Shown here one piece after another: positions 44,567 to 51,907 of a DNA stretch of 64,000 nucleotides (positions are counted from its first letter, which is position 1; every line of letters starts with the position of its first letter). Made by a program: the position numbers and the translations under genes. The notes beneath the pieces were generated by a model, which was given only the letters and a program-made list of their open reading frames with translations, was not told where the DNA came from and ran no database searches. The DNA comes from Edaphochlamys debaryana (lineage: Eukaryota > Chlorophyta > Chlorophyceae > Chlamydomonadales). The stretch spans positions 2,356,001-2,420,000 of the forward strand of contig JAEHOE010000001.1 of NCBI GenBank assembly GCA_016858145.1. Direction: 5' to 3'.

Positions 44567-47500
44567 ATGGTCGCAGCGCTGGGCACAGCCCGGCCAGTGC
44601 ACCGACGGCCAGGCACATGTCGTCGGGCTGGAGGGAAACTGGCCCGCTTGCGGGCTGTGCTGCAAGCGCTGGCAGTGGCCCTAGTGGTGCTAGCTTGGCG
44701 GCCCGCTGTAGCCTCTCTGGCCTCAATCCTGCTGGTTGACAGCGGACCGCGGTTTGTTACTGTTTTGGCGGAACTGGCCGCAACGCCGCCCACGGGCGCG
44801 ACCACGCTGCTCCTTACAAGGGTAAGCAAGTTCGTCGCTGAGCCCTGGTGCTTACGGCGGTCGGAGAGTGCCCAACCGGCGGCGGTCGAACGCACGCAAA
44901 GCCCGCGGTCTGGGGTGCCTTCCACACGACCCCACCACGCTGCCGTGTGCTGCGTGGGGCCCGGCAAGGCGACAGCAAGCCCTTGACGTGCAGCCGCAGT
45001 GGATAGCGGGCCCCCAACCCTCACACTCCCGCTGCCATCCTTCCTCCTAGCAGTGCGGCTCGCCCACATACCGGTGCCTGCCCCCCACCCCCTTCCGCAC
45101 GCCCCCGCACCCGGCTGGCCCTCCATCTACCGCACTCCGCTGCTGCCCGCTCACCCCTTAACCGTGCCCTCAGGACATCGTGGTGGAGCAGTCACTGTGG
45201 CCGGCCGAGACCGCCACTAGTGCCCTGGCCCTCAAGAGCAACGTCACGGTGGTCGGGTCTGTGCCAGGGAGCTCCGGCGCATACTCGCGGCTGGACCTGG
45301 ACTGGTCTTACCGCAAGCTCAAGCTGGCGCCGGGAGTGGCTTTCACGATGCAGCACCTTGTGCTCAGCAACTTCAGATCCAAGGTGCGGCACGCGCCTGA
45401 TGGCCGGTCTGGGCTGGGGCACACACGGCCGAATGAGTCGAGCCATGCATTTTGTCGTCTGCCGCGCCCTACCGGTACCTCCCCCGGTCACGCCTTGGAG
45501 CTCACCCCGGTTCCGCCCCCGGCCCTGCCCATGCTTACCCGCAGTTTGGCAACGACTTTGGTGAGGGGGGCCCACGGTGGGCGGTGATCTTAAGAGGGGC
45601 GGTCGTCACGCCAGGACTCCACGCCAGCTCACGTCACACCGCGTGTCGGGGGCTGTGCTAGCCCGCCCCGCCCCACCCTATCCCACCCTGCTGCCCCCGT
45701 CCCACCCCACAGACCTGCTCACGTACGGCCCGGGGGCGCTGCTGGTCCTGCAGGACGTGGTCTTCGACTTCCCCCTCTGCGTGGCGGCCTCCATCTCGGT
45801 CGCGGGCGTGGGCCGAGTGCCCCGCTCGCCCCGCGCCCCGCCCGCCCTGGGCACCAACACGAGCGCTGGCGTCTTCCAGCTCGCCGTGATCTGGCCCAAC
45901 AACACCTACTGCTACCCCTCCTTCGCCAGCCCCTCGGTCTGCACCTTTGACGGCGTACGCTTCGTGAGTCACAGCGGCCGGCTGCATGCCGGACACGTGT
46001 CGGTGTGTGTGCATGCTGCGGCTCACAGCCCTGTCCGGCATGTGCCGGCGTCCGGGCGCGAGGCCCTGACCCGCAAGGCTCTGGATGATAGACCACGTGC
46101 AACCCGACTTGTGCCCGTCGGTGCATATGTCTGCAGGTGGATGTGTGGCTGGAGGTCCCCACCATAGCGGACTTCCAGGGAGCTGGGGGTTATGATGTGT
46201 GGTATTCCAATGTCACGCGGGCGTGCCTCGCCATGATGACAAGCGAGTAAGCAGGGGCGTGCGGGAGGGCGGAGTGGGTTGCGCTGTTGGCAGGAGGGGC
46301 CAGGCCGCAGCGGCTGGGGTGACGGCCTCAGACAGTACTTGAGCACAGGGGAAGGGGCGACGTGGGAGGGAAATGGGGGCAGCCATTTGAAGACTGGGTC
46401 AGGCCATGCGGCACGCTGAGCCGTACGTGCTGAGTCGTGCCGAATGTTCGCGCCCCTTGCAACCCTTGGTCCCTCTCTTCAGGTGTGTGAGCTCGCTGGG
46501 AGCTGCGACGGTGAGAACGCCTACGGCGCAGCGCAGCTGTTTCCTAGTAGACCGCCTGAGGTCTTGGGCATGACGCAGTCACCCTGCACAGAGGTAGCGG
46601 GACCCCGCTCTGTCTGACACGCTCCCACCCATCATGTTACCGCCTGCAGTGCTACAACAACGCAGTGTTCAATCTGCAGAGGGCCAAGTCGGGAGGCGAC
46701 CAGGGCGGCGACGACCCGCAGCACCTGGCCATCATCCTGCCCAGCGTCATCTGCGGTAGGGGCCAGCTGGGGTCCTTGTGCGCTTGGTCCTGGAGCTCTT
46801 TGGGGCTGCAACAGCGCGTTCCTTGAGCGGTGTACCCCCCTGGTGACCAATGGACACGCCCCTGACCTCCTCCCTGCTCTTCCTCCTCCTCCCTAGGCAC
46901 CCTGTTGCTCCTGGGCCTGGGCGCGTGCGGGCTGTGGCTGGCGCTGGGCCCCACGCACGCGCTCATGGCTCGGCGGCGCCGCCTGAGCCCCCCGAAGGCC
47001 GGGACCGACACCACCCTGGGTGAGGCGGGGCGTTGCATGGATAGCTGCGAGGGCTAATGCGTTTGCTCGGGCCTCCCATCAACGTACGGTTGAGCAAACC
47101 CCTAGGTCAAATGGAGACCAGCGCGGGGTATGCCCGGCAGGAGCATAGCCGTAGCGGCGCCCGAAGCAACTGGGCCCGGCTCTGGTGACCGACGGCACGC
47201 GGCACGTGCGCATCCCCCCACTGCTCCAACCTCGTTGCTGTGCGCTGTGTGCTGTGTGCTGTGTGCTGCGCCCGCAGTGGTGACCGACATCGAGGGCAGC
47301 ACGGCGTGCTGGGAGGCGCTGCCCTCGGATGTCATGAACACGGCCCTGGGGCTGCACCATGGGGCCGTGCGGCGGCTGGCGCGGAAGCACCACGGGTTCG
47401 AGTTCGGGACGGAAGGTGAGTTGTCACTGTGTGGGGGCGAGCAGCGGTGACGGGGGCTGCGGTGACCGGACGTCAGCAGCTCGAGAGTCCTGGCCCAAGC

Positions 47501-50500
47501 AGATTGGCGTATGCCCAATGCCCTGTTCTTGTACGAGATCTAATAACTGATTGCCCATCTCTTGTCCACGTCCCACGTCCTTGCGCCTCCGTCTACCATG
47601 CGCCTCCTCCGCGGTCGACGCCCAGGCGGTGAGCCCCGCACGCGGCCGCGCTTGGCTCAGTGTGCTGCTTCTAGCCCTGCACCCTCCGCTGGTCGTTTGC
47701 ACACTGTGCGCTTGATCTTCACAAAGCCGCTCACCTCTCCTTTGTCCCGCCCTTCCTCCTCCCCAGACTCCTTCCTGCTGGCCTTCCACGACCCCCTCTC
47801 CGCCGTGTGCTTCGCCGCCGAGCTCCAGCGCGCGCTGCTGGAGGAGCCCTGGCCGCTGCAGCTGCTGCACCTCCCCGCCCAGGTGCGGGTGCGACCGCAA
47901 CCCCTCTCCTTCTGTCCCGCTCTCTGCTTGTCACTGGACCGTATGCCCTGGCTAGTCTCACTGGCTTTTTCCTCGCCCGTACAGTCCCCGACACCGGACA
48001 CGAAGCACCACACTCACAAGTCACAACCCCTGCTGACTGCTTCCGCGCCCTCGCCCACAGGTGCCCGTGTGGATGGCCCGCTCGCCCGTGACCAGCTCCG
48101 GCCAGGCGCCCGACCTGGTGCACGCGCCCAGCGGCGGCGTGGCGGTGCAGCAGCCCAGCATGTCGGCACTCAGCTTCCTGGTGCAGGGGGGCGGCGGCCG
48201 GGGCGCCCTGGACGGGGACGACGGCGACCGGGGCGATGACTCGGCCATGCCGGCGGCAGGGGGGCGGGCGGGCCTTCACCCGACCGCCTCGGCGCTCAGC
48301 TGGCGCGGGCGGCTGCTGGGCGGCCGGCTGCACCCGCACCTGGACGGCGCCGCCAGGGCCAAGCGGCGTCGCGCGTCGCAGCTGATGCTCGAGGCGCCGG
48401 CGCCGGTGGGTGGCCGCTCAGGGCGGAGCGTACCGGTAGCTGATCGGCTCAGTGGCCGTGTGCTGTCGCCTGCCTGTATCGTATGGCTTGTTGGCAGCTG
48501 CGCAAGGCACGCCCATTCAGGACGCTGCTCTATCTTGCCATGGAACCTAGCCCCTCGAGCGACCGTGCCTAACCTTTCCTGAAACCCCTGCCCCTGCACG
48601 CAGGCCCTGGACGAGGCGCCGGGCGACCTGGGCGGTCGCACCTACCTGCGGCAGCTGGAGGACGTCTGGCACCGCACCGACGACCCCGCCGCCCCCGCCA
48701 CCCCCGGCGGCCCCGGCCCCGGCCCCGGCAGCTGCACCCACGCCGGCAGCGTGCTGCTCTCCATCGTGGGCTCCTCCGAGGACGGCGGCGCCTCGCGCCG
48801 CTCCAACACCGGCATGGTCTCAATGGCACCCAGCGGCGGCTCCAAGGGCCGCAGGAGCCCCAACGCATCGCCGCTCTGGCACGGCCCCAGCAAGGCCGGG
48901 TCGCAGGGCGAGGGGCACGCGAACGGCGGCGGGGCCGGCGTGGGCGCGGCCGGGGCGGTGTGCATGTTCCGGGGCCTGCGGGTGCGCGTGGGCATGACGT
49001 CGGGGGTGGCCCCGGATGACTGCCGTGTCAACGAGACCACGCGCAAGGTCCAGTACAGGTGCGGGCGCTGTTGGGGATCTGGGTGGGGGCATGCGGGGGC
49101 GGGCAGAAGTAGGCCAGCGCGGTGCTTGAGGACGGCGCTGGTTGGAACCGCTGGATGGAGGCAGGGGCGCGGGGCCCAAGCCTCACGGCAGGGCGGGCAA
49201 ACGCCGCACCGGCTGCGGCCGCACTGAACGCACGGCCTAGCCAAACTGCCGGCCAGGCCAGGGTCCGCCCGCCAGGGTACACCCGCCTGCTACCACCATG
49301 CGGCGTCTACGCCCTTCACGTGGCTTACATCGCGGCCACCCCACCTCTCCTCCCGCCCAATCTCCCCCAGCGGCCGCCCGCTGGCGTGCGCCAAGGCGGT
49401 GTGCGACGCGGCCCAGGGCGGCATGACGCTGCTGAGCCCCGACAGCTTCCGGCAGCTCGCCTGGGCGGACGACGCGGAGGCGCCCGCGGTGGTGGTGTTC
49501 CACATGGGCGACTACACGCTGCCCTCCGGTGCGGCACCTTGGGGGCCGGGGTCGGGGGAGGAGACCCGGATAGCTGCACACTGCGATGGAACCCGGTGCC
49601 GGTAATGATGGGCATGCGGCGTTGGGAAGATCCCCGGGGCGGGGGCGTGCCTCGCTCGCTCTACCAGTACCAGATCCGGCCCGAGCCTTCAACCGGCCCG
49701 CCCGCTCCCCCCCCCCAGGCATCTCCCACCTGTGGCCCGCCGAGGCCGCTGCCCATCTACCAGGCGCTGCTGCCCGAGCTGGCGGGGCGGCTGGTGGCAG
49801 TGAGGGCCATGCGCAACTTCATGCAGGTGGGCAGAGCGCAGGCGGCTTCGAGTCCCCGCGCACTTCCCGGTGCGCCTCCGAGAATGCCGCATGCCAAGCC
49901 CACCGACACATGGCTTGTGCTGCACAGCCCTGGGCGCGCACGCACAACGTTGACCCAGAGCTTAGGAGCGGACCTGGCACCCACGCCCCTGCAACCGCCC
50001 CACCCTTCTCAACACCCGCCCCCATCATCCGCCGCCCCCCGCCAGGTGTCCCTGGGCGCGCTGGAGGCGCCCGTGGGCCGCGTGACGGTGCTGTTCATGC
50101 ACGCGGTGGGCTACGCGCACCTGGCGGCCTGGAACGGGGAGGTGCTGGCGCAGGCCTCGCTCACGTACGCGGCGGTGGTGAAGCGCCAGCTGGCGGAGGC
50201 GGGGGGCTACCTGGTGCGTGGGAGGCGGGGGCGGGGGCGGGGCGGGGGCGGGGGCGGCGCGCCCGGGAACCTGGCGTGCTGAGGGGCGCGCGTGGCAAGG
50301 GCCGAGGGTGTGAAGATACCGGCGGCCAAGGACGAAAGTCCCGTGCTCGCACCCGCGTCATGCACCCGCACTATCGCCAAGCGCCCGCGCCCACCCGCCT
50401 CCCCTTCCCCGCAACCCCCCCAGGTGGAGCTGGCCGACGGGCTGTGCCTGGCCGCCTTCACGTCCACGCCCGACGCCATCGCCTTTGCCCTCAACGTCAA

Positions 50501-51907
50501 GGACCGCCTGCTCACCGCCGACTGGTGCGCCGGGGGCCTACCTGGGACCGGGGCCCGGGGCCGGAGCTGCTCCAGGCATGAAACCGTCCACTGCGCGGCC
50601 TCCCCCACCTGTCCCCTCCCTGCCTCCCAAGGCGCACGACCACCTCCACCCACCTACAGCATGCGCGTCCCTCTCCACCCCCCTCCTCCCCGCTCACACG
50701 CCTCACCTTCCATCCGCATCACAAAACCCTTCCCACCCCCCTCCCGCCCACCCACACGCAGGCCCTCGGAGCTGCTGGAGCACGAGCTGTGCGAGGTGGT
50801 GGAGACGGGCGTCATCACGCAGGCGCAGGCGCGGCCGCCCTCGGTCGCGGGCGGGGGCGCGGGGCCGGGCGAGGGCGGCGAGGCGTCGTGCATGATCAGC
50901 AGCCAGGTGGTGCTGCGGGGGCTGCGCATCCGAGTGGGCGTGGACGTCAGCGCGGACGTGCACATCGAGATCTCGCCATCCACCGGCCGGATGTCGTACA
51001 GGGGCAGGTGGGTTTCTTGAATGAACTGTCGCTTGTACAGTTGGCTTGCGAGTTGTGACCGCCCTGCTGCGCCCCCCTGCATGCTGTGCATGCTGCGCTA
51101 GATGCCTTCGGGCTGGACCCTCCTAACCGCCCGTGCCGCAAACTCCTCCCACCCACCCACCCCACCCCACCCCACCCCACCCCTCCCCCAGGGTCATGAA
51201 CCGCGCCGCCCGCATCTCCGCCAAGGCCACCAGCGGGGCCGTGCTGGTGTCGGAGGAGGCCTGGGCGGCCTGCAGGGGCGCAGCGCACCTGGCGGCGCGG
51301 GCCGTGGGCTGCGTGGAGCTCAAGGGCATCGGCACGCTGCAGCTGTACGCGTGCGGATGTGAGTGGCTAGCTCGCTGGTGTGGTGGCACGGCACAGCGGT
51401 GGCGTGGGATGCAGCGTCGGAGGCTTGAAGGAAATTGGCCGGGGGAGGGGGTGTGCGGGGGGCGACAGGGGCTGTGAGAGTCAGTCCACGCCGTGCCCCC
51501 TGCTGACGTGCCCGCTGCCGGTGTGTTTGTTCGCAGGGAGGGAGGGCCTGCACCGCCTCGCCTCCACGCGTCGCGGCAGCACTACCATCAGCTTCTGCGG
51601 GCACGGCGGTTCGCAGTACAGCGTCAGGTACGGCAAAGTTCCTGGAAGGGGCCGCGCCGCCGTGTTTGTTGTGCGTTATGCACTGCAGCCTCACGGTGTG
51701 AAGCTTCACGCCAGGTCCTGCTGGCCTGAACCCGCTCGCGCCTTGACCTGCCCTGCTCCTGCAACCCTTACCTTGTTCCCGTTCAGGATGGGACCACACA
51801 CCAATGACGGCACCCCGCCGCCCGAGGACGCTCAGCAGCGGTCCCAGGGGGTGCAGACGCAGGCGGCTGTCCTGGTGGAGGCGTCAACACAGACCGACCC
51901 CATGTAG
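44567..51907 (+). CDS. receptor-type class III nucleotidyl cyclase with tandem catalytic domains
   Basis: Exons: 44567-44821, 45174-45383, 45545-45560 (16 nt), 45713-45963, 46137-46246, 46483-46510, 46650-46755, 46897-47019, 47278-47415, 47626-47628 (proposed 3 nt), 47767-47882, 48061-48405, 48604-49058, 49371-49528, 49719-49826, 50046-50213, 50424-50524, 50762-51007, 51192-51358, 51537-51627, 51787-51907; about 1,104 residues. Signal anchor (LQALAVALVVLAW), extracellular beta-helix/pectin-lyase-like domain with N-glycosylation sites, membrane helix (IILPSVICGTLLLLGLGACG), then C1 (VVTDIEGST, GTEGDSF), a Ser/Gly-rich insert of about 270 residues, and C2 (GRVMNRAARISAKATSGAVL). Metal Asp residues lie only in C1, the Asn/Arg pair only in C2. 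The summed exons carry one base too many between exons ending 49528 and 49826. Product (cAMP or cGMP) undetermined. Confidence 0.88.
47626..47628 (+). other. candidate 3-nucleotide microexon (gcg) in the cyclase gene
   Basis: The trinucleotide is flanked by cgcccag and gtgagc. Exon 9 ends in ACG GAA G and exon 11 begins AC TCC TTC. Direct joining gives T-E-D-S-F; with gcg included the codons become GGC and GAC, giving T-E-G-D-S-F, the near-invariant class III cyclase motif. The frame is kept either way, so only the motif argues for it. Confidence 0.55.

Follow-up and report, generated by a model that had tools for sequence, protein, structure and literature searches.

Can three nucleotides lying between two introns form an exon that completes the catalytic motif of an enzyme? 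This question is raised by HYH03_000414, a class III cyclase gene located in a 64-kb stretch (the window, GC content of about 67%) of the 142-Mb genome of the green alga Edaphochlamys debaryana. Two exons encoding its first cyclase domain are separated by 351 nt, and the public model of the gene (protein P0001) omits the trinucleotide gcg that lies between them, hence reading T-E-D-S-F. The trinucleotide is preceded by CGCCCAG and followed by GTGAGC, and its inclusion (G|GCG|AC) encodes Gly-Asp and gives T-E-G-D-S-F. The junction reads ...ACGGAAGGCGACTCC with gcg and ...ACGGAAGACTCC without it.

A candidate exon of three nucleotides in HYH03_000414

We read the bases of the locus directly and confirmed the original prediction of a gcg exon at this place whose inclusion restores the Gly residue. 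The prediction had called both flanking splice sites good; this held for the donor, which ranks first, and the acceptor proved weak in the window gene (see below). The 16-nt and 28-nt exons that had been considered genuine in the same gene were borne out as well (Table 1). That the trinucleotide would complete the catalytic motif is supported by the presence of the same exon in a sister gene, by the Gly-Asp pair of related proteins and by the lack of a one-intron alternative, all described below. However, this claim has to be amended in one respect: the residue absent from the public model is the turn Gly preceding the metal-binding Asp, and the Asp codon itself (G|AC) forms with or without gcg.

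Table 1. Features of HYH03_000414 in the window and the corresponding candidate microexon of its sister gene on contig C18
Feature	Position	Strand	Description
Gene HYH03_000414	44567..51907	+	Class III cyclase, two cyclase domains; exon models, public protein P0001, stop codon read
16-nt exon	45545..45560	+	Frame kept; residues present in P0001
28-nt exon	46483..46510	+	Frame kept; residues present in P0001
Exon before microexon	47278..47415	+	Carries VVTDIEGST (first metal Asp); last bases ACG GAA G
Intron A	47416..47625	+	210 nt, GTGAGT...CGCCCAG, phase 1 (G|GC)
Candidate microexon gcg	47626..47628	+	3 nt; would complete GGC (Gly) and supply the first base of GAC (Asp)
Intron B	47629..47766	+	138 nt, GTGAGC...CCCCAG; interrupts the Asp codon (G|AC)
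Exon after microexon	47767..47882	+	AC TCC TTC... (DSFLLAF), preceded by CCCCAG
Second cyclase domain, several exons	50046..51358	+	RVMNRAARI present, both metal Asp absent
Candidate sister microexon gcg	C18:890619-890621	minus	CCCCAG|gcg|GTGAGC

As described in PMC6592433, class III cyclases bind their metals through two Asp residues and stabilize the transition state through an Arg and an Asn residue, and in membrane cyclases these residues are distributed over different halves. The nearest solved structures are those of the trypanosome cyclases GRESAG 4.1 and 4.3 (1fx2 and 1fx4), which resemble HYH03_000414 in the TDIE-ST and GDSF segments and in the Asn/Arg motif. Indeed, the TDIEGST segment of domain 1 aligns with TDIESST of the GRESAG proteins and its TEGDSF segment with their TVGDSF, and domain 1 thus carries the two metal-binding Asp residues of one catalytic half. 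Its other active-site positions are kept, and at the Asn/Arg place it reads SGRPLACAK (matched by eye). In domain 2, RVMNRAARI aligns with RTSNMAART of 1fx4 and provides the transition-state Asn and Arg, and the two metal places read LFMHAVG and LADGLC. Since domain 2 lacks the metal Asp residues, domain 1 is likely the sole metal-binding half, and it is probably the hairpin of this half that the microexon completes. Unlike the GRESAG cyclases, HYH03_000414 combines two unequal domains in a single chain, each providing part of the catalytic residues, and the motif of domain 1 is split by two introns.

Inserting the Gly residue keeps the reading frame and restores a conserved sequence (TEGDSF). 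Against the PF00211 profile (cut-off, 21.9 bits), the domain 1 fragment of the window gene scored 22.2 bits with Gly and 11.6 bits without it, and the corresponding fragment of the C18 sister scored 19.3 bits with Gly, which is below the cut-off, and gave no match without it. P0001 itself belongs to this family through domain 2 (33.4 bits). The form lacking the Gly residue would presumably be inactive. A hydrophobic segment of the protein, judged by eye, is encoded near 46897-46960.

Conservation in a sister gene and strength of the splice sites

A DNA search of the same genome retrieved matching exons on the minus strand of contig C18, which correspond to HYH03_005431. There, one exon ends with GCA ACA GAG G followed by GTGGGG, and the next one starts with AC GCC TTC after CCCCAG. 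Both sisters hence have the same layout, with CCCAG|gcg|GTGAGC located between an exon that ends with the G of the Gly codon and an exon that starts with AC. The public model of the sister (P0121) likewise skips gcg and reads T-E-D-A-F. The two exon 1 proteins are 65% identical, and the genes pair with a support of 83/88 in a tree built from 37 rows and 58 columns, in which most other forks are weak. Conservation of the trinucleotide among relatives thus consists of one diverged paralogue of the same genome. The original prediction had named orthologues reading T-E-D-S-F as evidence against the exon. Two database entries nominally fit this description, but they are the gene models of HYH03_000414 and HYH03_005431 themselves rather than transcripts.

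The longest string common to the two introns, CCCAGGCGGTGAGC, has 14 nt and lies at offset 205 in the window intron and 203 in the C18 intron; no other common string exceeds 9 nt. In 1,000 shuffled intron pairs, the longest common string averaged 8.9 nt, reached at least 13 nt in three pairs and had a maximum of 15 nt. Furthermore, YAG-NNN-GTRAG was found in none of 25 control introns of paralogues, and AG-GNG-GT was found in 3 of them. A chance origin of the shared string is unlikely on the basis of both the shuffles and the control introns. The 13-mer pattern YCAGGCGGTGAGC, defined only after both copies had been seen, occurs at 46 sites on both strands of the genome compared to 4 sites for the reversed pattern, so that approximately 6e-5 occurrences would be expected in a 350-nt intron read on one strand. 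The other 44 sites could either mark the ends of ordinary exons or be additional 3-nt exons.

The probability of a fortuitous match had been put at roughly one in ten. This is a fair estimate for the loose string AG-GNG-GT, which appeared in 3.6% (window intron) and 7.2% (C18 intron) of 3,000 dinucleotide shuffles each and occurs at a rate of 0.22 per 351 nt on both strands of the window. Strings that match the splice consensus are far rarer. YYAG-GNG-GTGAG was obtained in 1 of 3,000 shuffles of the window intron and in none of 3,000 shuffles of the C18 intron, and YCAG-NNN-GTGAG has a single occurrence in the 64-kb window when both strands are counted, at 47622. Among the 19 modelled introns of HYH03_000414, scanned with the last three intron ends placed a base or two off, only the microexon intron has YAG-NNN-GTRAG, and gcg is the sole AG-NNN-GT string in this intron.

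We then scored the splice sites with a position weight matrix (PWM) trained on 30 introns, 15 from HYH03_000414 and 15 from paralogues. The intron B donor ranked first among the internal GT dinucleotides of both genes (23 in the window intron and 14 in the C18 intron). The intron A acceptor ranked second of 15 AG dinucleotides in the window intron and first of 15 in the C18 intron. Its score in the window gene (1.66) is below that of the lowest training site (5.58), and the C18 acceptor scored 7.78. The outer donor and acceptor of the window gene are strong (11.85 and 9.88, respectively). When all microexon candidates of 1 to 30 nt were ranked, gcg came first in both introns (18 candidates in the window and 11 in C18). 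The C18 intron contains a second string, AG-GGG-GT, whose GGG exon would also yield Gly-Asp, and its sites are weaker than those of gcg. Both sites of gcg look functional and leave introns of normal size on either side (210 and 138 nt in the window; 208 and 170 nt in C18). A one-intron route to Gly-Asp was searched for among GT-AG, GC-AG and AT-AC pairs (365 in the window intron and 410 in the C18 intron), and none of them gives TEGDSF or TEGDAF.

The Glu-Gly-Asp junction across the family and the origin of the two introns

The original prediction relied on class III cyclases keeping Gly-Asp almost without exception, and this was upheld both in protein databases and in the genome. The pattern TxGDx[FYL] was present anywhere in the protein in 117 of the 120 homologues listed out of 214 found. 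Two of the remaining three read E-G-D on alignment, and the last one is the model of HYH03_000414 itself. Eight further proteins comprised the sister P0121 (TEDAF), five proteins with TEGD, and P0123 and P0124, which had no pattern match (unaligned). The protein searches retrieved no whole-length close relative among the matches listed beyond the two genes' own models; one of these searches, with limited lengths, scored 7,985 candidates sharing most words, and the C18 sister was not listed in it though present in the query.

A protein search of the same genome with the cyclase domain gave 83 matches, and the Glu-Asp junction was read at 52 loci, the rest being duplicates, additional exons of genes already covered, or unread. 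Glu-Gly-Asp lies within one exon at 19 of these loci. A phase-0 intron is found at GAG|GGC (or GGT) at 16 loci, a phase-1 intron within the Glu codon at 4 loci and a phase-1 intron at GAGG|GC at 5 loci (L070, L080, L081, L084 and L091, with GAAG|GC in L084). At 3 more loci, only the second exon was read, with GGC-GAC or GGC-GAT after AG. Gly-Asp is thus encoded without a microexon at 47 of the 50 other loci, several of which are near-copies of one another, and a microexon is required by the window gene and its C18 sister. The junction was unreadable at L073, L074 and L082, and L011, L080, L081, L082 and seven other loci were assigned by hand. All 25 introns of the other paralogues at this place have GT-AG ends. 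Genome-wide, at least 163 matches to PF00211 were obtained with 150 of 261 candidates scored, which suggests a strong expansion of the cyclase family in E. debaryana.

Intron A occupies the position (G|GC) of the single intron of the five phase-1 paralogues, whereas intron B (G|AC) was found only in the window gene and its sister among the loci read. We thus hypothesize that the family intron at G|GC-GAC came first and that the ancestor shared by the two sisters acquired another one at GGC-G|AC, three bases farther along, before the gene was duplicated. An intron gained three bases 3' of an older one would leave a 3-nt sliver as an exon and, given that five paralogues have a single phase-1 intron at the place of the upstream intron, the microexon looks like such a leftover. 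The phase-1 loci are scattered in the tree instead of forming one group, and a common descent of intron A across all five is not supported by this tree. Taken over L010 and L060 to L094, introns interrupt the TE/GD junction at four places spanning about seven bases (within the Glu codon, after it, within the Gly codon and within the Asp codon), which could be read either as an intron hot spot or as intron sliding. We also considered a mobile intron (introner) as the source of intron B and rejected it: the window copy matches nothing else in the genome, and the C18 copy has two short ones of 41 to 53 nt.

An exon of three nucleotides is too small for both splice-site complexes at once, and introns A and B would therefore have to be removed one after the other. 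If intron B left first, the transcript would return to the single-intron arrangement of the five paralogues, and if intron A left first, the result would be an ordinary exon ending with GAAGGCG before GTGAGC. For plant microexons, PMC8831610 describes what appears to be a consecutive removal of the two neighbouring introns, with a tendency for the upstream intron to be detained. The public models probably omit gcg because read mappers and gene finders seldom recover such short exons. The E. debaryana annotation is described as built with STAR and BRAKER (PMC8226300), which would account for the omission.

Alternative readings and comparison with known microexons

Taken together, the DNA of one genome and the public protein models indicate that gcg is very probably a genuine 3-nt coding exon of the functional mRNA, supplying the Gly residue and starting the Asp codon in the TEGDSF hairpin of domain 1. 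The 351 nt could instead form a single intron, the protein being truly T-E-D-S-F, the Gly codon having been lost in the ancestor of the sisters and the domain being degenerate or tolerant. Both public models, which were made with RNA-seq, do join the outer exons directly, and the strong outer sites together with the weak inner acceptor of the window gene fit such an intron. We nevertheless consider this quite improbable: it leaves unexplained the 14-nt string common to both introns and absent from the 25 control introns, no listed homologue that was checked, apart from the two own models, reads T-E-D-[S/A]-F (P0123 and P0124 giving no motif match), and the other active-site positions of domain 1 are intact. 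The string could also be a recursive splice site or another conserved splicing element within one intron, since acceptor and donor lie nearly back to back and a two-step removal of the intron is conceivable. A zero-length ratchet, however, would read AG|GT, and here the three intervening bases encode just what both genes lack. Together with the absence of the string from the control introns, this makes such an element very improbable.

The exon could finally be a regulated cassette, inclusion giving a competent enzyme (TEGDSF) and skipping a likely incompetent one (TEDSF), which overlaps with our preferred reading and does not compete with it. The length of three nucleotides preserves the frame, the skipped form is the one present in both public models, and strong outer sites combined with a weak inner acceptor could permit skipping in the window gene. 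The inner acceptor of the C18 sister is nonetheless ordinary and ranks first there, and we regard regulation of this kind as unlikely. If it were true, the alga would toggle the sole metal-binding hairpin of a two-domain cyclase between a competent and an incompetent state, in two sister genes.

This locus would add a candidate from a chlorophyte alga to a documented kind, the ultrashort coding exons. Plant microexons of 1 to 15 nt are well documented and often missed, and Chlamydomonas reinhardtii was one of the ten species studied in PMC8831610. The survey of PMC11096116 detected none of 45 conserved microexon clusters in Chlorophyta; C. reinhardtii is reported to have been excluded when these clusters were built (PMC8831610). 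Like the plant microexons (Yu et al. 2022, PMC8831610), among them the 1-nt exons of APC11 and VPS55, gcg would be a tiny coding exon between two introns that is kept between relatives, missing from the public annotation and completing a protein motif. Unlike them, it is known from DNA alone, whereas the plant exons rest on RNA-seq and RT-PCR (PMC8831610), and it belongs to another gene family. It further differs in that its paralogues reveal how it probably arose, through a second intron next to an older one. A 3-bp micro-exon has been described in Drosophila homothorax (PMC7392893); it resembles gcg in having three bases in a coding region but belongs to an animal gene and is alternatively spliced. 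A description of the gcg exon of HYH03_000414 was not found in our literature search.

We thus propose gcg as a candidate 3-nt exon with a visible origin, the one-intron state being still present in relatives of the same genome. The catalytic motif is probably misrepresented in two public models, which could lead to working cyclases being called defective. The locus would also be a cheap and clear case in which to test whether an alga splices minimal exons stepwise.

Three other features of the two genes were observed. The reading frame shifts at the same place in both sisters (49371-49826 in the window; about 1440-1370 on the minus strand of L009), just after a conserved stretch (VVVFHMGDYTLPSG; VAVLHLGEYG), and both public models evade the shift by omitting part of this stretch. 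This could reflect a misassembly, a piece of exon that has become intronic or a further splice that has escaped recognition. The public model of the sister ends with a HlyIII-like membrane domain (PF03006, residues 1378-1510 of P0121) that is absent from the window gene, and two adjacent genes may have been fused in this model. Finally, a short repeat of the ctgtgtg type lies at about 47235-47270 of the window, just 5' of the exon preceding the microexon, and has several genome matches at 94-97%.
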